In this document: positions 3,359 to 11,962 of the stretch, one piece after another
Position numbering within the stretch: the stretch's first letter is position 1
Layout: each line of letters opens with the position of its first letter
Origin: Actinomycetota bacterium
GTDB lineage: Bacteria > Actinomycetota > Acidimicrobiia > Spongiisociales > UBA5794
NCBI GenBank assembly: GCA_030125685.1
Contig: JASJYA010000008.1
Span: 1-33,334, forward strand
Length of the DNA stretch: 33,334 nucleotides
Direction of reading: 5' to 3'
The notes under the pieces: generated by a model
What the model saw: the letters and a program-made list of their open reading frames with translations, nothing else
Database searches by the model: none
What the model was told of the DNA's origin: nothing
Program-made: the position numbers and the translations under genes

Positions 3359-4318
3359 AACGACGATCAGCGCGTCAACCTCGATGTCGAAGCGCACCTC
3401 GACGCCAGGCGTCGCGGCGAGTGGGGCGCGCATCTCGAGCGAGGATCCTTCAACGCCGAAGGCGACCGCCACGATGTTGCTTCCGTCCTCGAATCGGGAC
3501 GTTGTCACCGGTGCGCTGAACCTGCCGCTCGGGCTCATGGTAACGGCTTCGAGGGGCACGAACACAAGTCCGGCCCCACCGTCGCTTATCATGCTGTGGG
3601 GCACGAGGTTGGACTGGCCGATCGATCGTGCGACGAAGGCTGACTGCGGGTCACGCCATATCTCGTCGGGCGTCCCAACACGCACGACCTCTCCTTTGTC
3701 CAGGATCGCCATCCTGTCACAGAAAGCGAATGCTTCGGCCCGGTCGTGGGTGACGTACACGCTCGTAGCTCCAACAGCTTCCAGGATCGACCGGGTCTCG
3801 GCTAGGAGAGACTCCTTGAGAGAGATGTCGAGTGAGCCGAGAGGCTCGTCGAGCAACACAACCGCCGGTGAGGGGGCGAGGGTCCTCGCGAGGGCGACCC
3901 GCTGCTGTTCTCCGCCGCTCAACGTGGTCGTTCTCCGTTCGGCGAAGCCAGCAAGTCCGACGAGTTCAAGCAACTTTGCGGCGCGTTCATTGCGCTCGGT
4001 CTTCGGCACGCCGTTCATGCGAAGCCCATATGCCACGTTTTCGAGAACGGCCATGTGTGGGAACAGCGCATAGTCCTGGAACATCAGCCCCACCGGTCGT
4101 TGGTGCGCCGGAACCCCTGTCATGTCCGCGCCGTTGATGTGCACCGATCCCGATTGCATTACAGCGAGGCCCGCGATGGCGCGCAGTAGGGTGCTCTTCC
4201 CTGACCCGGACGGACCCATGATCGCGAAGCGCTCGCCGCTCTTCACTTCAAGGGTGACGTCTTTGACCGCATCAGTGTCGGGGTAGCTCACAGAGATATT
4301 TGCGAGGTTGAGGCTCAC
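3341..4318 (-). CDS. thiQ: thiamine ABC transporter, ATP-binding protein
   Basis: 325 residues, the energy-coupling subunit of the importer. Walker A GPSGSGKST is at 35-43, the Q-loop at MFQDYALFP (79-87), the signature LSGGEQQR at 133-140, Walker B VVLLDEP at 153-159 and the switch His in VTHDRAEA. After about residue 235 an extra C-terminal part follows, probably a TOBE-like regulatory domain as in iron and molybdate importers; E. coli ThiQ (about 232 residues) lacks it. The GTG start overlaps the thiP stop (GTGA). The family alone would allow iron or sulfate; the thiamine call comes from the riboswitch, the ThiB-like binding protein and the kinase in the same operon. It is convergent with the cysteine hydrolase, with an 18-base overlap at 3341-3358. 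Confidence 0.88.
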   Translation of the reverse strand: MSLNLANISVSYPDTDAVKDVTLEVKSGERFAIMGPSGSGKSTLLRAIAGLAVMQSGSVHINGADMTGVPAHQRPVGLMFQDYALFPHMAVLENVAYGLRMNGVPKTERNERAAKLLELVGLAGFAERRTTTLSGGEQQRVALARTLAPSPAVVLLDEPLGSLDISLKESLLAETRSILEAVGATSVYVTHDRAEAFAFCDRMAILDKGEVVRVGTPDEIWRDPQSAFVARSIGQSNLVPHSMISDGGAGLVFVPLEAVTMSPSGRFSAPVTTSRFEDGSNIVAVAFGVEGSSLEMRAPLAATPGVEVRFDIEVDALIVVSANEV

Positions 4319-5982
4319 AGTTCCCCCGCCTTCGGCGTTCGTAGCGAATCGATGATGAACACGGCGATCCCTGTGATGAACATCAGAACAACGCTCATGG
4401 ACACCGCAGCCCCGAAAGGCGCCGACCCTGGGCGGCCTAGGAGGCGGAAGATGGCTATGGGGATGGTCGGTGTGTCGGGGCGTGTGATGAAGGACGTTGC
4501 ACCGAATTCACCCATGGAGATAGCAAACGCGAACGCCGCAGCAACGAGAATCGAACGTGACACCAGTCGCAGATCGATCGTCCACCACGCCATCGCCGGC
4601 TTCGCTCCGAGGATGGCGGCAGCTTCACGAAGATGATGCTGGACTGCGCCCATCGACGGACTCGTGGTTCGCACCACGAACGGTATGGCAACCAACGCGT
4701 GGGCTATCGGTATGAGGATCAGCGATGTCCGGAGGTCGACGGGCCGGCCAAGCGCGACGAGGAAGCCGAACCCGATCGTCACGGCCGAGGTGCCCAGAGG
4801 CAGCATCACGAACACATCGAACGTTCTGGCGACTCTTCTGCGAGAGTACGACAATCCTGCACTGGCCAACACCCCGATCACGACAGCAATGAGCATCGCC
4901 ACGAGCGCAAATCCGAGCGAGTTGGCGATGGCTTCTGACGGCGCAACGAAAGCCGCGCTTCTGCCGGGGAGATCGACGAGATTGATGTAGTTCACGAAAC
5001 CGATGCTTCCGTCGGGGCCGACCAATGATCGTGCGATGAGAATCAGAAGCGGCGTTCCGACGAGGACGCCGGACACACCGAGGATCCCCCACACAGCAAG
5101 CCGGTCAGAGGCGGTGATCGGGCGCGGTGGGAGCGCTGCCCGGTGAGCGAATTGGACTGTGGTTCGCCGTTGGTACCTCCCGTACAGGATCAGGATCGCA
5201 CCGACCCCGATGAGCTGAAGAACGGCGAGGGTGGAGGCGACATCGAGTCTGAGGTACGCGGTTGTCTGCCTCCAGATCTCGACCTCGATCGTCGAGTGCG
5301 TGAAGCCTCCGAGCAGGAGAACAACTCCGAACGAGGTGAAGGAGAACAGGAAGACGAGAGCGCTCGTTGACGCAATAGCAGGCCGAAGGAGCGGGAGAGT
5401 CACGGTGAGAAAGGCGCGCACACGTGATGCTCCGAGGCTCCGAGCCGCGTCCTCGATTGATGGGTCGATGCGTTCCCAGTAGGCGCCCACACCTCGCACC
5501 ACGATGGCGTAGTTGTAGAAGACGTGTGCGATCAGGATGATCGCAAGGGTTCCCGTGAGGTCCACTCCCGTGACGCCTCGCGGCCCGATGAGGACGAGGA
5601 ACGCTGTGCCGACGACGAGTGTCGGAAGCACGAACGGCACGAGTGTGGCTGCACGCATTGCCGCCTTGCCGGGGAAATCGAACCGGGCGAACACCCATGC
5701 GGCGGGGAGTCCCGCGACCAGCGTCAGGAGGGTGGACAGGACCGCCTGCCAGACCGTGAAGGCGGCAACCCCTTGAAGGGTTGGATCTGTGAACACGTCG
5801 AGGAAAATGGACGGGTCGAACACGCCGGCGGGTGTCAACCCCCGCACGGTGATCACAACTACCGGGTACAGAAAGAAGTACGTGAGGAACACCGTCGGAA
5901 CGGCAATGATCGCTGCCGTTCCTTTACGGCCGAGAGGGCTCCGCGCTACGAGCGAGCGATCGCTGTCCACTCTTGGATCCAT
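4315..5982 (-). CDS. thiP: thiamine ABC transporter, fused permease
   Basis: 555 residues with about 12 membrane segments in two homologous halves, as in ThiP and FbpB. Each half carries the cytoplasmic EAA loop that docks on ThiQ: EDAARSLGASRVRAF in the first and REAAAILGAKPAMAWW in the second. The size fits the family (about 530-560). The ATG at 5982 lies 37 bases inside the thiB gene, and a GTG at 5970 is a possible later start; either way translation is coupled. Iron permeases share this architecture, so the substrate rests on context. Confidence 0.9.
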   Translation of the reverse strand: MDPRVDSDRSLVARSPLGRKGTAAIIAVPTVFLTYFFLYPVVVITVRGLTPAGVFDPSIFLDVFTDPTLQGVAAFTVWQAVLSTLLTLVAGLPAAWVFARFDFPGKAAMRAATLVPFVLPTLVVGTAFLVLIGPRGVTGVDLTGTLAIILIAHVFYNYAIVVRGVGAYWERIDPSIEDAARSLGASRVRAFLTVTLPLLRPAIASTSALVFLFSFTSFGVVLLLGGFTHSTIEVEIWRQTTAYLRLDVASTLAVLQLIGVGAILILYGRYQRRTTVQFAHRAALPPRPITASDRLAVWGILGVSGVLVGTPLLILIARSLVGPDGSIGFVNYINLVDLPGRSAAFVAPSEAIANSLGFALVAMLIAVVIGVLASAGLSYSRRRVARTFDVFVMLPLGTSAVTIGFGFLVALGRPVDLRTSLILIPIAHALVAIPFVVRTTSPSMGAVQHHLREAAAILGAKPAMAWWTIDLRLVSRSILVAAAFAFAISMGEFGATSFITRPDTPTIPIAIFRLLGRPGSAPFGAAVSMSVVLMFITGIAVFIIDSLRTPKAGEL

Positions 5983-6995
5983 CGCTCGCGGTTCTCGTGG
6001 ATCGTGCCGGGCGCCATGACGGCAGGAGATTCGGGGAGCGTCGTGAAGTCGACGAAGACCTGTGGCAGCACAGCCTCGGTGTTGGCAGGGAACACGAACA
6101 TGTTGAGGGGGATGTCCTCCTGCACCGTCTTCGAGAGCAGGAAGTCGATGAATAGCCTCGCCGTCGATTCATGCTCTGTACCCGCCAGGATGCCGGCGTA
6201 CTCGATCTGCCTAAAGCAGCCTTCAGTCATGACTCCGGTAGGCGCCTCCGAAAGGCCCCCGAAGAACACCTCTGCGGGCGGCGAAGATGCGTACGACACG
6301 ACGAGAGGTTGAGCGCCTCCCGAACGGCTGAACCTCGTGTAGTAGGCGTCGGACCAGTCAGACGCGACCACGACGCCGTTGGCGAACAGGTCCGTCCAGT
6401 AGGCCTGCCAGTCGTACTCAGCCCCGTCAGGGTACGCGGCGATCGTGGCCATCAGGAAAGCGAGACCAGGGGATGACGTTGCCGGATCCTGGACGACCAG
6501 CAACCCCTCGTACTGTGGCAGGAGCAGGTCGTCGAGCGTTGCGGGGGGCGGAACGCCGAGCTCGGCGAGGCCTTCGATGTCGTAATTGATGCATACGTCA
6601 CCGAAGTTGATCGGCGTTGCAGCATCATGTTCGACACGGAGAAGGATGTTGACCGTGTCGATCCCGACCGCCGTATACGGGACGAACAGACCGGCGTTGA
6701 CGGCGCGGGATAGGAACGTGTTGTCTACGCCGTAGATGACGTCAGCGATCGGGTTGTCCATGGTCAGGATCGCCTGGTTGAGCATTGTTCCCGCGTCACG
6801 GGACATTTGGACGTTGACCTTGACGCCGGTCTTTTCTGTGAACTCTTCGAGCACTCCCTCGCTGAGAGCGAACGAATCGTGGGTGAGGAGCGTGATCTCT
6901 TTCGGCTTCGCGTCGGATGCGCAGCCGCTAGCGATGAGAGCTGTTGCAACCAGCGCCATGCCAAGTCGCAGGATCCTTCGGTTCTTCGGGTTCAT
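5946..6995 (-). CDS. thiB: thiamine-binding lipoprotein
   Basis: 349 residues. A signal peptide with a lipobox (LIASGC, lipid on C25) anchors it outside the membrane, where it would capture thiamine for ThiPQ. The mature start, ITLLTHDSFALSEG, and the segment IADVIYGVDNTFLSRAVNAG closely follow the E. coli TbpA/ThiB pattern (VLTYDSF ... ADVVLGLDNNLL). YASSPPAEVFF and the C-terminal VFPANTEAVLP are also typical. The ATG at 6995 overlaps the end of the upstream kinase gene. Together with the riboswitch this makes the substrate call strong. Uptake of thiamine phosphates as well as thiamine is possible. Confidence 0.92.
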   Translation of the reverse strand: MNPKNRRILRLGMALVATALIASGCASDAKPKEITLLTHDSFALSEGVLEEFTEKTGVKVNVQMSRDAGTMLNQAILTMDNPIADVIYGVDNTFLSRAVNAGLFVPYTAVGIDTVNILLRVEHDAATPINFGDVCINYDIEGLAELGVPPPATLDDLLLPQYEGLLVVQDPATSSPGLAFLMATIAAYPDGAEYDWQAYWTDLFANGVVVASDWSDAYYTRFSRSGGAQPLVVSYASSPPAEVFFGGLSEAPTGVMTEGCFRQIEYAGILAGTEHESTARLFIDFLLSKTVQEDIPLNMFVFPANTEAVLPQVFVDFTTLPESPAVMAPGTIHENRERWIQEWTAIARS

Positions 6996-7642
6996 CAGAA
7001 TTCTTCTCCTTCTATGATCACGAGTACGGTGCCTCGGCCGACCTCGATCGATACCTCATTCGTGATCGCCTTGTTGCTTACGCCCCTTGAGACGCCTCGG
7101 GTCAGGGATTCGTCCATGAGGGGCCAACGCAAACCCGAGGTTGTGACGCTGTGCGCGTCTCCGACGGGGAGGAGGGTCACAGTCTGCCCCACAGTGACGG
7201 TCACTGAGAGGGGTTGGCTCGGTGTGACGACCCGCACGACCCCACTCGATGTGTGCCATGCGATTCGCACGTCGCGCCAGGCGGGATTCGTTAGTGAGAG
7301 AGCGGCGCTCAACAGGTGATCGAGCCTCCCTCCTTCGCCGCCGTAGATGTCGATCGAGTCTGCGCCCCTGGTGACCGCGGCGCTAACGGCGAGCTCGAGA
7401 TCCGTCTGGGCTTTCTGTGCTGAGTGCGCTTCGATCTCGACACCCGAGTTCCTGGCGTGGCTGAGGCCTGTGTCGGAGATTGAGTCAAGGTCGCCGATGA
7501 GCAGGTCGACGGAGATCGACCGCGCCATGGCATGGTCATAGCCGGAATCGGCGACGATCACGAAGTCGTCGACGCCGACGTCCGGTTCGGTGTTGAGGTG
7601 GCCGCCGGTGATGACGACTCCCCGGGTCTTCGATGTGGTCAC
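6995..7642 (-). CDS. thiN: thiamine pyrophosphokinase
   Basis: 215 residues. Transfers pyrophosphate from ATP to thiamine to give TPP in one step, so imported thiamine is made active at once. Family motifs are visible: ADSG at 31-34, GDLDSI at 50-55, KAQTDLELA at 77-85 and GGEGGRLDH at 101-109, then a C-terminal beta domain with GVSNKAI. It starts at GTG 7642; a GGAGGGAGGAG run just upstream is both the Shine-Dalgarno and the 3' end of the TPP riboswitch. It is the first gene of the operon, followed without gaps by thiB, thiP and thiQ. Confidence 0.92.
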   Translation of the reverse strand: MTTSKTRGVVITGGHLNTEPDVGVDDFVIVADSGYDHAMARSISVDLLIGDLDSISDTGLSHARNSGVEIEAHSAQKAQTDLELAVSAAVTRGADSIDIYGGEGGRLDHLLSAALSLTNPAWRDVRIAWHTSSGVVRVVTPSQPLSVTVTVGQTVTLLPVGDAHSVTTSGLRWPLMDESLTRGVSRGVSNKAITNEVSIEVGRGTVLVIIEGEEF

Positions 7643-7650
7643 GCCACTCC

Positions 7651-7743
7651 TCCCTCCGCTGGCATTATCCAGCTCAGGTTCTGCGGGTCGGTGGCAGTGC
7701 GGTGCATCGCCACCCTCTCAGCCCGGCCGTTCCGAGCTCCCCG
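7651..7743 (-). promoter_or_regulatory. TPP (THI-element) riboswitch
   Basis: On the minus strand the conserved TPP aptamer parts appear in order: GGGGAGCTCGGAACGG at the 5' side, GGGCTGAGAGGGTGG (CTGAGA core), ACCGACCCGCAGAACCTGA, then GCTGGATAATGCCAGCG and GGAGGGAGG. The 3' strand of the closing stem runs into the purine-rich Shine-Dalgarno of thiN, and there is no room for a separate terminator. Control is therefore most likely at translation initiation: TPP binding would hide the ribosome site and shut off kinase and transporter together. Confidence 0.95.
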
Positions 7744-7759
7744 GTGTGGAAGTGATTTC

Positions 7760-7765
7760 ATGATA
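7760..7765 (-). promoter_or_regulatory. -10 box of the thiamine operon
   Basis: Minus-strand TATCAT about 17 bases before the 5' edge of the riboswitch, so transcription would start just ahead of the aptamer. I see no good -35 at 17 bases. Confidence 0.45.
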
Positions 7766-7789
7766 GCGACATGTGACGCGAAAAGGTGG

Positions 7790-7818
7790 TTGACAATGTG
7801 CCATCAGTGTGACATGAT
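7790..7818 (+). promoter_or_regulatory. promoter of the RHH-DUF4097 operon
   Basis: TTGACA at 7790-7795, a 17-base spacer, and CATGAT at 7813-7818: a perfect -35 and a 5-of-6-like -10. It is the best sigma-70-type promoter in the window. It is divergent from the thiamine operon promoter 25 bases away. Repeats on top of it (next entry) suggest repression. Confidence 0.7.
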
Positions 7819-7828
7819 GACAATGTCA
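7791..7828. promoter_or_regulatory. operator-like repeats over the promoter
   Basis: TGACAATGT occurs at 7791-7799 (on the -35) and again at 7818-7826 (just past the -10), 27 bases start to start. The right copy also forms an inverted repeat TGACAT-N7-ATGTCA at 7810-7815 and 7823-7828. A protein bound here would block the polymerase. The ribbon-helix-helix protein encoded by the second gene of the operon is a natural candidate, since RHH proteins often bind repeated short sites in their own promoters; that link is inference. Confidence 0.5.
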
Positions 7829-7858
7829 GAACGACATCACAGTGACTGAGGAGGCGCT

Positions 7859-7984
7859 ATGTTGTGGTACAACAGTCCCGAGAGCATCAAGGCAATCCAC
7901 GAAGGGCGGTACAGCTCGTTGGTCGGCGAAGGTAATCGACTCATGCGGCTGATCCGAGCTGACTGTCAAGACACTAACCGGTGA
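7859..7984 (+). CDS. 41-residue protein, first gene of the RHH-DUF4097 operon
   Basis: A short open frame from ATG 7859 to TGA 7982-7984, beginning MLWYNSPESIKAIHEGR and ending LMRLIRADCQDTNR. It has a strong ribosome binding site (GAGGAGG at 7849-7855, correct spacing) and lies 41 bases after a near-consensus promoter, which is the main support. The sequence is mixed and probably one or two short helices, with no membrane segment. I do not recognise it. The next gene starts 22 bases after its stop. It could be a true small protein or a leader peptide. Confidence 0.6.
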   Translation: MLWYNSPESIKAIHEGRYSSLVGEGNRLMRLIRADCQDTNR

Positions 7985-8006
7985 AGTCCAACGATTGGAG
8001 ATTGAA

Positions 8007-8456
8007 ATGGACGTTGAGAGCGTTGTCCAGCAATTTCGACGCAGTGTTGAGGGGCAGCTTGCGATCGCGGGCGATGACCCTGCGTTGGCTGCAGCGGGAG
8101 AGGCTGTGCTCATTGCACTTGAGCCGGCGCTGCGTCAGGCCGCTTCCGCCCTCGCCGAGCAGGCTGCCGCCGAGGTCGCGGCTCAGCTTCCGGACAACAC
8201 GGTTGATGTCGTGTTGAGCGATGGAGAGCCGACCCTTGTCGTGAGACGAACTGGGGATTCTGTGGCAATCAATACCGAGGATCTCGATGCCCGGATGACC
8301 GTTCGTCTCCCCGAAAATCTCAAGGATGATCTCGAAGCCGCAGCGTCCGAACTCGGAGACTCAGTCAATACGTTCGTTGTGAAGGCGCTCGCTGGATCTG
8401 CAGAAGTGCTGAAGCGGTCATCTCGATCGACATTTGAAGGAACCATCGAGACATGA
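8007..8456 (+). CDS. ribbon-helix-helix (HicB-like C-terminus) protein
   Basis: 149 residues from ATG 8007, which has GGAG at 7997-8000; an upstream in-frame TTG at 7995 overlaps that site and is less likely. Residues 1-62 are an alanine-rich helical region. The middle (about 65-90) looks like two beta hairpins (VDVVLSDGEPTLVVRR). The C-terminal part, RMTVRLPENLKDDLEAAASE then LGDSVNTFVVKALAGSA, has the strand-helix-helix pattern of RHH DNA-binding domains as in HicB-type antitoxins and Arc. There is no HicA toxin next to it; its partner is the DUF4097 protein, whose start overlaps its stop (ATGA). Probably a transcription regulator of this operon. Confidence 0.7.
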   Translation: MDVESVVQQFRRSVEGQLAIAGDDPALAAAGEAVLIALEPALRQAASALAEQAAAEVAAQLPDNTVDVVLSDGEPTLVVRRTGDSVAINTEDLDARMTVRLPENLKDDLEAAASELGDSVNTFVVKALAGSAEVLKRSSRSTFEGTIET

Positions 8457-9223
8457 GCGACCGCGAGCACACATTCGAAGTCATTGGACCGCCCCGCATT
8501 GACGTGAGAATCCGATCAGGCGATGTGATTATTCGACCGTCTGACGGAGATACCGTGACCGTGCTGCTCTCGGGCGACACCGAGATTGTTCAAGAGGCAT
8601 CGGTTGAAGCGACGCGCGATTCGGTGTCCATACGGTCTCGATCCCAATCGCGACGATGGTTCTCCAGGGCGATGGATGTATCGATATTCGCGCCGCCCGG
8701 AGGATCGCTTCGCGTCAATCTTGGATCGGGTGACGTGATCGTGCGGATCCCGCTGTCGTTGGTGGATGTGCATGCTGGGGCGGGGGATGTGCGCATTGAT
8801 GACTCTGTTGACGATGTGCGAGTGAAGGTGGCCGCCGGGGACGTGACGATTCGGGAGAAGGTGCGTGATGCTGGGATAGCGTCCGCCAGCGGCGACGTTC
8901 GCGTCCAGGAGGTGGGCGACATCTCCGTCAATACAGCATCGGGTTCAATCCACCTTGGCCTGGTTACCGGCACTGCACGAATCAAGTCAGCTTCGGGTGA
9001 TCTGAAGATCCACGAATTCAGCGGACCGGAGCTCAACGTCACCACGATGAGCGGCGACGCGACCATCGGACTCGGTCCCGGCATGGTCGTCGGTGCAAAG
9101 ATCACCACGATGTCCGGGGAATTGCGCAATCGGATCAAGCCTTCGAACGTGGAGAAGACGCGCAGGATATCGCTCACGGTGAAGTCGCTCAGCGGCGACG
9201 TGACGCTCAGGGCACCCTGGTAG
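8453..9223 (+). CDS. DUF4097-type beta-repeat protein
   Basis: 256 residues with repeated short beta units of the form G-D-V-x-I/V: SGDVIIR, SGDVIVR, AGDVRIDD, AGDVTIRE, SGDVRVQE, SGSIHLG, SGDLKIHE, SGDATIG, SGELRNR, SGDVTLRA. These predict a right-handed beta-helix as in the DUF4097 / 'putative adhesin' family. There is no signal peptide or membrane segment, so despite the family label it should stay in the cytoplasm. The start overlaps the previous stop (ATGA), so the RHH protein and this one are made together. Function is unknown; a sensor or scaffold partner of the RHH protein is possible. Confidence 0.85.
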   Translation: MSDREHTFEVIGPPRIDVRIRSGDVIIRPSDGDTVTVLLSGDTEIVQEASVEATRDSVSIRSRSQSRRWFSRAMDVSIFAPPGGSLRVNLGSGDVIVRIPLSLVDVHAGAGDVRIDDSVDDVRVKVAAGDVTIREKVRDAGIASASGDVRVQEVGDISVNTASGSIHLGLVTGTARIKSASGDLKIHEFSGPELNVTTMSGDATIGLGPGMVVGAKITTMSGELRNRIKPSNVEKTRRISLTVKSLSGDVTLRAPW

Positions 9224-9258
9224 CTACAAGATGTCAGGCATGACTAGCGTTCGCGGTC

Positions 9259-9939
9259 ATGACGATTGATATTTCTGAGTTCGTCGCGGAGCACCAGTTC
9301 GGACCGGCCGCGGGGGAGAAGCGCCCGCTCTTCGTCGCCATTGCGGGAGGCTCCGGTTCCGGCAAGACGACGATTGCTCGTTCTGTGGTCGATCTGGTCG
9401 GCCGCGACAAAGTCGTCTATCTCCAACAGGACGCGTATTACCGCGATCAGGCGCATCTTGCGTTTGAGGATCGCCTGAAGATCAACTACGACCATCCTGA
9501 CTCGATCGAACTCGAGTTGCTCGTCGAACACCTCCAGGCTTTGCGGAACGGTCAGGCGATCGAGCGGCCCATATACGACTTCGAGACCCACACGCGCACG
9601 GATGAGACACTCCTGATTGCGCCCGAGCCTGCGGTGATCGTGGAGGGCATTCTGCTTCTTGCGGACCCGGATCTACGTGACTGCTTCGATGTTCGCGTGT
9701 ACATCGACACCGAACCGGATGTTCGCCTGATGCGCAGAATCCAGCGTGACATTGTCGAACGGGGACGCTCGGTGGAGTCGGTGCTCGCCCAGTACGAAAA
9801 GACGGTCCGTCCGATGCATCATCAGTTTGTTGAGCCGTCGAAGCGGTATGCAGATATCATCATCCCCGAAGGCATCAATACCGGCGCTATTGGAACGGTG
9901 TCTTCGATGATCCGCCACTTCCTCGCACAGCGACGATAA
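9259..9939 (+). CDS. udk: uridine kinase
   Basis: 226 residues. Phosphorylates uridine and cytidine with a nucleoside triphosphate in pyrimidine salvage. Walker A GGSGSGKTT is at 30-38; family landmarks LQQDAYYRD, NYDHPDSIELELL, PIYDFETHTRT, VIVEGILLL and RRIQRDIVERGRS follow in order. Length is usual (about 210-230). The ATG has no clear Shine-Dalgarno; a TAGCGT eight bases upstream could serve a leaderless start. It lies 35 bases after the DUF4097 gene, so read-through from that operon is also possible. It converges with the histidine kinase gene. Confidence 0.93.
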   Translation: MTIDISEFVAEHQFGPAAGEKRPLFVAIAGGSGSGKTTIARSVVDLVGRDKVVYLQQDAYYRDQAHLAFEDRLKINYDHPDSIELELLVEHLQALRNGQAIERPIYDFETHTRTDETLLIAPEPAVIVEGILLLADPDLRDCFDVRVYIDTEPDVRLMRRIQRDIVERGRSVESVLAQYEKTVRPMHHQFVEPSKRYADIIIPEGINTGAIGTVSSMIRHFLAQRR

Positions 9940-9985
9940 CTTGTTTCGTTTCGCGCAGTGCAACGGATACTGGACAGGGCACTAT

Positions 9986-11962
9986 CTAACGATCAACAAC
10001 TCTCTGTTGTGCGTCGTGAGGCGTTCGCCGATCGTGGAGAGCCTCGCTGCTCTCGGGAGAGCGTGCGACCGAGGCGGACTCGACCTCGGGATCGACCGAT
10101 CTCCAGGCAGGGAGCGTCAGTTCGAACAGGCACTCTCCGCCTTCGTATCGGTAGGTGAGCTCCCCGCCCATCAATCGGGCGAGAGTCCTTGACACCGCGA
10201 GTCCCAAGCCCATCGAGCCCGGGATCGCCCCGGCGTTGCGAAGGGTTTCGTACGGTTCGAAGATGAGGTCCAATCCCTCGGCGTCGATGCCCTGCCCGTC
10301 ATCTGTCACGAGGACGCTGACTTTCTGTTTGTCGTGGATTCTGACTTCGATATGCGATCCGCCGTACTTGATCGCGTTCGAGATCAGGTTACGTAGGATC
10401 TGGCGGACGCGCATCGGGTCCCCCGTTGCCTGAGCGGATTTTCCGACGAGGGTGATGCCGGTCGACTGCTCGGACTCCAAGGATTCGATCACCTGGGTCG
10501 CTTGTGCTTTCAGGTTGACAGGTACCTCGACCACCACCAGGCTCCCATCCGCTGAACGTGTGGCGACGAGCAGGTCTTGGATGAGGCTGTCGAGTTCGGA
10601 AGCCTCTCGGGCGATGGCGCCGACCATCTCGACTCGCTCTTCTGCGGAGAAGCCCGATACCTCGTCTCGTAGCAGTTCGGAGTAGCCCACGAGCGTCGTC
10701 AGGGGCGTCCGAAGCTCGTGGGATACGGTTGCAATGAACTGATCCCTGCCGGAGATTAATTTCGTGAGATGATCGGCCATGTCGTTGAATGCTCTTCCGA
10801 GGATGCCGAACTCGTCGCGACCGCCGGGGTCTGCGCGCTGGTCGAGGTCACCGTTAGAAATTGCAGTTGCCACTACGGTGAGTGAACGGGCACGTCTGGC
10901 AAGCTGTCCTCCCAGAGCCCATGCGACCACGAGGCCCACGAGGGCGAGCAGGCCGATCATGACGAACTGGGCCAGGTTTACCCGGGCAGCGGTGCGAAGC
11001 AGTAAGTTCTTAGCCACGATATCTTCGAGCAACAGAGTCTCGAGGTCGTCGAGAGCATCTATCCGGAGCGTTGCCGTCATCCACCATTCTCGAGCGTTGA
11101 GATCCGAGAGATTGTCGGAGAGAGCAGTCTCCCGGAACGCGATGATGTTTGATGAGGCATGGTTCTGTAGCAGCCCCCCTGGCGTGGGCGGGTAGCTGAG
11201 CTTCTCTTGGTAGAGCTCTCGGAGTTCGGGAGTCGCATGATGCAGAAACACGTCGAGGTGTGCATTCTGAGAACCGATCAGGCGGGAGAGACGCGCAAGC
11301 CCATCTCGCGAGAGGCGCCCGGCGGCAATGGCGTGGCCGAGAACCGCTCGCTCCAAGCCGGCTGACTCCGTTGCTTTGGCCAGGGAATTGTACGCCCAGA
11401 TCAGGCTGACGATTTCAGCGTCGGGAGACCATCGCGTGAGCTCGGGTACCAGTTTCAGTAACCCCTCGTTGACAGAGGAGTAGAAGATCAGGCTATCCAG
11501 CTCGTCCGAGTCGAGGCCGCGGACATTCGCCCGATGCGCGTCCAGATTCTCGAGATTGGGAAAGATATCGAGCGGATTGGAGGCTTGAAGCAACGGAGTG
11601 CCGTCATGGAGTTCCAGAGGCTCCAGGAACTGCTCGCCGTCTTGCACGGCGTGCAGGAGCGATTTTGTCAGGAGCGCAGCGCTCTCGTCCGTTCGGAGGT
11701 ACTGCTCCTCCAGTTGGTCTCCGAAATCGGTTCCTCCTGAACTTAGAAAGCGTGCGCTGAGCCCACGTTCTGTCTGGATCTCGTGCACCAGGTCGCTCGT
11801 TTGCTTGACGATCGGGATCAACTCCCACAGTTCATGCACGTCGTAGAGCACACTTATCCGACCTGAGATCTGAGTAAACAGGACCGCAAGCAGGACAATG
11901 ACCGGGCCCAAAACCATGATTGTCAGCTTCGAACGGATCCCCACCCGTGCAGATACGGTCAC
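9986..11962 (-). CDS. sensor histidine kinase with NIT-type sensory domain
   Basis: 658 residues. TM1 is at about 12-31. A large outside domain (about 45-320) carries the marks of the NIT (nitrate/nitrite-sensing) family: TSDLVHEIQTERGLSARFLSSGG near the start, and later SAGLERAVLGHAIAAGRLS. TM2 is at about 328-352, then HAMP (ISNGDLDQRADPGGRDEFG), HisKA with the phosphorylated His in TVSHELRTPLTT, and HATPase_c (RNLISNAIKYGG, VTDDGQGID, GSMGLGLAVSRTLA). It ends in a charged tail. No response regulator gene is adjacent, so it is an orphan here. The GTG at 11962 overlaps the stop of a 20-residue leader frame. NIT domains are named for nitrate/nitrite, but the ligand is unproven in most members. 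Confidence 0.9.
   Translation of the reverse strand: MTVSARVGIRSKLTIMVLGPVIVLLAVLFTQISGRISVLYDVHELWELIPIVKQTSDLVHEIQTERGLSARFLSSGGTDFGDQLEEQYLRTDESAALLTKSLLHAVQDGEQFLEPLELHDGTPLLQASNPLDIFPNLENLDAHRANVRGLDSDELDSLIFYSSVNEGLLKLVPELTRWSPDAEIVSLIWAYNSLAKATESAGLERAVLGHAIAAGRLSRDGLARLSRLIGSQNAHLDVFLHHATPELRELYQEKLSYPPTPGGLLQNHASSNIIAFRETALSDNLSDLNAREWWMTATLRIDALDDLETLLLEDIVAKNLLLRTAARVNLAQFVMIGLLALVGLVVAWALGGQLARRARSLTVVATAISNGDLDQRADPGGRDEFGILGRAFNDMADHLTKLISGRDQFIATVSHELRTPLTTLVGYSELLRDEVSGFSAEERVEMVGAIAREASELDSLIQDLLVATRSADGSLVVVEVPVNLKAQATQVIESLESEQSTGITLVGKSAQATGDPMRVRQILRNLISNAIKYGGSHIEVRIHDKQKVSVLVTDDGQGIDAEGLDLIFEPYETLRNAGAIPGSMGLGLAVSRTLARLMGGELTYRYEGGECLFELTLPAWRSVDPEVESASVARSPESSEALHDRRTPHDAQQRVVDR

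Follow-up and report, generated by a model that had tools for sequence, protein, structure and literature searches.

Proteins of the Toastrack (DUF4097) type abound, and what they do has been proposed rather than shown. RHH proteins read DNA through alternate residues of a beta-strand, and the repressors MetJ, CopG and Arc use such a strand on short (pseudo-)palindromic boxes that form arrays over the promoter. Omega of pSM19035 is a further RHH repressor that occupies arrays of short repeats over the promoter by beta-strand reading (PMC4803016). The two kinds of protein have been linked before: an actinobacterial RHH-Toastrack-ABC operon is mentioned by Ravi et al. (2024, mSystems, PMC11237479), who also propose that Toastrack domains build complexes beneath the membrane for the sensing of stress. 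The LiaFSR/LiaG and YvlB-PspC systems of Firmicutes tie Toastrack to envelope-stress regulation, and in two-hybrid tests the B. subtilis DUF4097 protein YvlB showed interaction with PspA and LiaH (PMC9239133).

The locus described here lies in a window of 33,334 nucleotides, the whole stretch of DNA that was analysed, which corresponds to contig C58 in a draft genome of 1.88 Mb and 181 contigs. We consider it fairly likely that this locus is an RHH-Toastrack module for efflux or envelope stress that represses itself and has a small protein as an independent member of its regulon. On the forward strand, the gene of a 41-aa small protein of the [WF]YNNPE family (7859..7984; MLWYNSPESIKAIHEGRY...) is followed by that of a 149-aa RHH repressor (8007..8456; ATG at 8007, ribosome-binding site GGAG at 7997-8000) and by that of a 256-aa Toastrack beta-helix protein (8453..9223). 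The initial annotation had described a 41-aa ORF with a perfect ribosome site, a protein with a C-terminal RHH domain and a DUF4097 protein coupled to it by ATGA, and all three descriptions were borne out: AGGAGG stands at 7849..7854 on the same strand and the ORF is kept in all 30 family loci, the RHH domain (residues ~95-137) is recovered by Pfam HicB and AF2, and the DUF4097 protein matches Pfam PF13349 (70.8 bits, cut-off 22.9), with the ATGA overlap read at 8453.

Compared with omega, MetJ, CopG and Arc, the window has 8-bp boxes at 11-bp spacing, an extra N-terminal domain in the repressor and a coupled Toastrack gene. HicB antitoxins share with it an RHH domain that exceeds the Pfam HicB cut-off (24.4 bits against 21), but there is no HicA among the neighbours, which are the small ORF and Toastrack, and the N-terminal domain falls outside every family model. 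Unlike LiaFSR/LiaG and YvlB-PspC, the window operon has no two-component system, PspA or PspC, its regulator is an RHH protein and its Toastrack protein carries no membrane anchor; composed of small ORF-RHH-Toastrack-(udk), it holds none of PspA, PspC or LiaI-LiaF-TM, the components by which a PSP/Lia operon is recognised. A likeness also exists to the operon of Ravi et al. (PMC11237479), with Toastrack and RHH genes in one operon and, in some lineages (as at our loci L178, L179, L294 and L296), ABC exporter genes as well. The window operon is without an exporter, and the accessible part of that paper describes no operator, trans exporter regulon, MFS targets or small protein.

The Toastrack protein has a right-handed beta-helix fold (AF2 pLDDT 95; Foldseek 4qrk at E 1.8e-8 and 4opw at 1.6e-5), and no TM segment was found in it by hydropathy. 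In the RHH protein, an alpha-alpha-beta-beta domain is predicted at residues 1-81, ahead of the RHH domain; the PDB relatives of the latter are KacA, CopG and Arc, with weak E-values, and Foldseek returns AtaR (prob 0.93) and Arc (0.85). The N-terminal domain, predicted confidently by AF2, had no fold-search match among solved structures and no family-model match. Full-length relatives of the RHH protein occur at 30 loci among 50 genomes of the window's family; the relatives' records with titles shown are mostly MAGs labelled Acidimicrobiia. The Toastrack gene comes next after the RHH gene at every one of these 30 loci, with the ATGA overlap in 29, and the two genes are probably translationally coupled. 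Within the family the locus is single-copy and its neighbours are partly conserved. A single-sequence query for DUF4097 relatives gave no match against the genome contigs, but a query with the RHH-protein alignment did find them, and this alignment-based search recovered the RHH-Toastrack pair across the class and the phylum Actinomycetota, including genomes of 6-11 Mb to which we give the inferred label Streptomyces-like. Typical acidimicrobial versions of the operon also appeared under non-actinobacterial titles (L036, Armatimonadetes ATM 1323; L065/L066, Acidobacteria N075bin71), records that are probably mislabelled or misbinned.

A uridine kinase gene (udk, 9259..9939, forward strand) begins 35 nt downstream of the Toastrack gene, no terminator was found between the two, and in about half of the family loci udk lies on the same strand 10-111 nt after the operon; it is probably co-transcribed in the window, though not a core part of the module. 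Upstream, on the reverse strand and divergent from the operon, stand a TPP riboswitch (7633-7753) and thiamine-related genes (ThiP/ThiB-like, thiamine pyrophosphokinase-like; 4315-7642), a neighbourhood that recurs only in part of families f1 and f2. One genome of the same genus (G001; locus L211, contig C178) retains the operator and the small ORF but has lost the RHH gene together with roughly the first 214 Toastrack codons; on this single draft contig, residue 3 of the small protein, elsewhere a nearly invariant Trp, is Arg, a change that fits relaxed constraint after loss of the partners.

The operon is preceded by a sigma-70-type promoter (7790..7818, forward strand) that consists of TTGACA (7790-7795), a 17-bp spacer and an extended -10, TGA-CATGAT (CATGAT at 7813-7818), in a layout shared by homologous loci. 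No other promoter-like site was seen in 7600-10100, but a single one is about what shuffled sequence gives (0.8), so the case for this promoter rests on its conservation. In homologous promoters, TTGACA is followed by TGACATCA boxes at each 11 bp, covering the spacer, the -10 and the start site; the usual array has three TGAYRTCA boxes, from the -35 to about +10. The window has four degenerate 8-bp boxes at the same spacing, which form a putative operator at 7799..7839: box 1 TGCCATCA (7799-7806), box 2 TGACATGA (7810-7817), box 3 CAATGTCA (7821-7828) and a weak, inferred box 4 CGACATCA (7832-7839). This copy scores 20/24 and is four mismatches from the consensus. The array is kept in homologues: by computation, the best three-box score upstream of 77 close relatives averages 22.0/24 against 13.6 in shuffled sequence. 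Periods of 9, 10, 12, 13 and 15 yield about 14-15/24; periods 8 and 14 are higher (18.2 and 17.1), plausibly because the -35 TTGACA sits in that register.

These results sharpen the initial view of the promoter. Its near-consensus character was confirmed by direct reading of TTGACA, the spacer and CATGAT with the preceding TG, and the two TGACAATGT copies 27 bp apart that had been taken for the operator are indeed present (7791-7799 and 7818-7826). This pair, however, amounts to the -35 hexamer plus part of boxes 2-3 and is not kept as such in homologous loci, so that we rejected it as the operator. The idea of a built-in operator survives in altered form: an array does exist on the promoter, and the conserved element is the 11-bp-period TGAYRTCA array rather than two TGACAATGT repeats. 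The lack of conservation that would have told against the initial view is clearly not seen: of the features expected to recur next to homologous pairs, the small ORF and the TGAYRTCA boxes are kept and the TGACAATGT pair is not. Self-regulation, also part of that view, is supported by an array that covers the -10/+1 region and by box sequences that track the base-reading residue of the RHH protein. As a separate observation, three Streptomyces-like loci (L167, L170, L172) carry further TGGTGCCA-type box arrays 100-300 bp upstream of the RHH gene, which suggests spreading of the repressor.

The predicted base-reading strand of the RHH protein is R96-x-T98-x-R100. Within the window's family neither R96 nor R100 ever changes; residue 98 varies across the phylum together with the operator. 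Loci with Thr98 have TGAYRTCA boxes (426 half-sites with A, 42 with G), those with Asn98 have TGGYRCCA boxes (13 with A, 54 with G), and the two with Ala98 have TGATATCA. In the tree, some Thr-bearing rows are nested within the Asn clade, and their boxes shift back towards A. This computed co-variation of residue 98 with box positions 3/6, reversals included, is strong indirect evidence that the RHH protein binds the array; at the level of sequence, its beta-strand residues thus appear to read short palindromic operator repeats.

How far the regulon extends was assessed by a search of 138 genomes of the order for three boxes with at most three mismatches, with the reversed pattern as control. 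Arrays were present in 75 of these genomes, and the control gave none. Among 26 extra arrays that were read, two turned out to be RHH loci and the other 24 stand upstream of further genes, directly preceding 17 MFS_3 exporters, four ABC-2 exporter ATPases, one LiaF-TM protein and two stand-alone small-ORF genes. Counted by genome across related families, such arrays precede MFS_3 exporters in 17 and ABC-2 exporters in 5. The stand-alone genes (L270, G149:C11; L273, G143:C55) each have their own TGACATCA array and a terminator hairpin at the end. The LiaF-TM case is a point of likeness to the Firmicutes systems: in L283 (G230:C190), a TGAYRTCA array and a small ORF are followed by a LiaI-LiaF-like TM protein, with a P-type ATPase farther along. 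Arrays outside the RHH gene are rare both in the window's family and in Streptomyces-like genomes. Exporters are met there too: one genome of the family (G006, L293) has a weaker array upstream of an ABC-2 exporter, whose orthologues, 67-69% identical, lie directly behind Toastrack in two others (L294 in G013, L296 in G014), and several Streptomyces-like loci have DrrA/DrrB-like ABC exporter genes after the RHH-Toastrack pair. A cis-only operator for the whole order, as a two-box search had indicated, is ruled out by the exporter targets of the three-box search, although it nearly always holds within the window's family; three two-box matches (G000:C147, G028:C259, G002:C7) lie inside coding sequence and were taken as chance. 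In the window's genome we found no second array within three mismatches (its own operator is four off) and no ABC orthologue; since no exporter target was found there, that genome's known targets come down to the module and perhaps udk.

The small ORF is a gene under purifying selection in its own frame only: pN/pS is 0.14-0.34 between close pairs in frame 0, the other frames lack such bias, and changes concentrate at third codon positions. Its sequence in the 30 family loci is mostly M-x-[WF]-[YTAQ]-N-N-P-[ED]..., no family model matched it, and profile searches find one strong copy per genome, at the RHH-Toastrack locus. Across families the architecture is bimodal, with the operator either abutting the RHH start without a small ORF or separated from it by about 100-300 bp. 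Of the 73 loci with a gap of at least 80 nt, 68 have it occupied by one or two SD-led small ORFs (8.8 expected from shuffles). Small ORFs of different families share a layout of hydrophobic start, short helix-like stretch and basic tail; sequence homology between them was not established, and we do not claim one protein family for WYNNPE and the others. In family f8, two different small ORFs stand in tandem between operator and RHH gene (L046, L048, L053). At three loci (L215, G019:C274, with two in tandem; L216, G032:C199; L237, G015:C35), related small ORFs of the form [YF][FI]NNP[EA]A stand ahead of a winged-helix regulator gene of the ArsR type that has a different operator, of TTGAACAT-like repeats.

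The position of the small ORF invites the reading that it is a leader peptide or uORF which steers RHH translation (through stalling, attenuation or coupling) without being active as a free protein. Its place in those 68 loci would fit, as would the leaderless form of loci that lack it and the NNPE-type ORFs ahead of the ArsR-type gene. We nevertheless think it unlikely, given that stand-alone copies have their own array and terminator (though their homology to the WYNNPE type is not established), that leader RNA structure gives no signal (z about 0), and that the distance to the RHH start ranges from overlap to 124 nt. Moreover, in family f5 (L280-L282) the small ORF is absent from the RHH operon and present in the exporter operon under the same array. 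The small ORF thus probably encodes an independent member of the regulon and not just a leader. Chance repeats combined with a chance small ORF, conceivable when short motifs are viewed in one sequence, have a negligible probability in the face of conservation in dozens of genomes with clean controls.

Two further readings concern the repressor. The array could belong to another regulator, with the RHH-Toastrack operon merely one of its targets; G149 has arrays on MFS, ABC and small-ORF genes, and the RHH gene was not detected there, which leaves room for a different regulator, or for a contig that is missing, in that genome. We regard this reading as quite improbable, as the bases at box positions 3/6 follow the residue in the RHH strand, reversals included, and arrays are nearly confined to the RHH gene in the window's family and in Streptomyces-like genomes. 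The locus might also be a type II toxin-antitoxin-like pair in which Toastrack substitutes for the toxin and the operator is subject to conditional cooperativity, as matches to HicB/antitoxin-type models, ATGA coupling and an autoregulatory operator would allow. That the DUF4097 protein replaces a toxin, as had been suggested, found no support, while the accompanying remark that the RHH protein lacks a toxin partner proved right: its neighbour is Toastrack, not a toxin fold by Foldseek, and there is no PADLOC or toxin-family match. Together with a single-copy locus among partly conserved neighbours, a wider regulon made up of exporters and an RHH domain placed after a structured domain, where antitoxins usually show the opposite order (PMC4803016), this makes a toxin-antitoxin pair very improbable.

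Returning to the autorepressed efflux/envelope-stress module, its working can be sketched as follows. RHH dimers would bind TGAYRTCA boxes that succeed each other by one helical turn, form a row across the -10 and the start site and so silence the operon; it is the geometry of boxes over -10/+1 that points to repression. Toastrack, made with the repressor through ATGA coupling, would most likely dock on the N-terminal alpha-alpha-beta-beta domain of the RHH protein, which in the structural model offers a natural docking site, and may relay an envelope or substrate signal upon which the repressor leaves DNA. Both the Toastrack-RHH contact and the signal are conjectural here; the relay is proposed on the basis of the sub-membrane stress-sensing role put forward in PMC11237479 and the interactions of YvlB (PMC9239133), and the DUF4097 protein as a sensor, which the initial annotation had offered, is possible. 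Derepression would then yield more repressor, Toastrack and small protein and, in relatives that possess one, also an MFS_3 or ABC-2 exporter with the same array. More tentatively, small proteins of 25-55 residues may form a class that serves RHH-Toastrack efflux regulons, as independent members or as adaptors, and moves between repressor, exporter and stand-alone units under the same operator; with related NNPE peptides also beside an ArsR-type regulator, such proteins may in Acidimicrobiia modulate repressors or exporters more generally.

Whether this is an undescribed system, as first supposed, has a divided answer: the RHH-Toastrack-ABC operon already figures in PMC11237479, whereas in the open-access literature searched neither the operator with its residue-box code nor the MFS/ABC regulon nor the small proteins turned up in an earlier account. 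The analysis exposes very small proteins without an earlier description found, of a kind that short-ORF cut-offs can miss. It also ties Toastrack to a repressor that has a sequence-readable DNA code and exporters as targets, the latter for the most part in genomes outside the window's family. The role of Toastrack becomes directly testable in culturable actinobacteria, e.g., Streptomyces, which appears to possess this pair under a leaderless operator. Because pumps that export drugs or lipids appear to be controlled by this DNA switch in related bacteria, the three-gene unit most likely governs the timing of export, helping the cell to decide when to pump things out.
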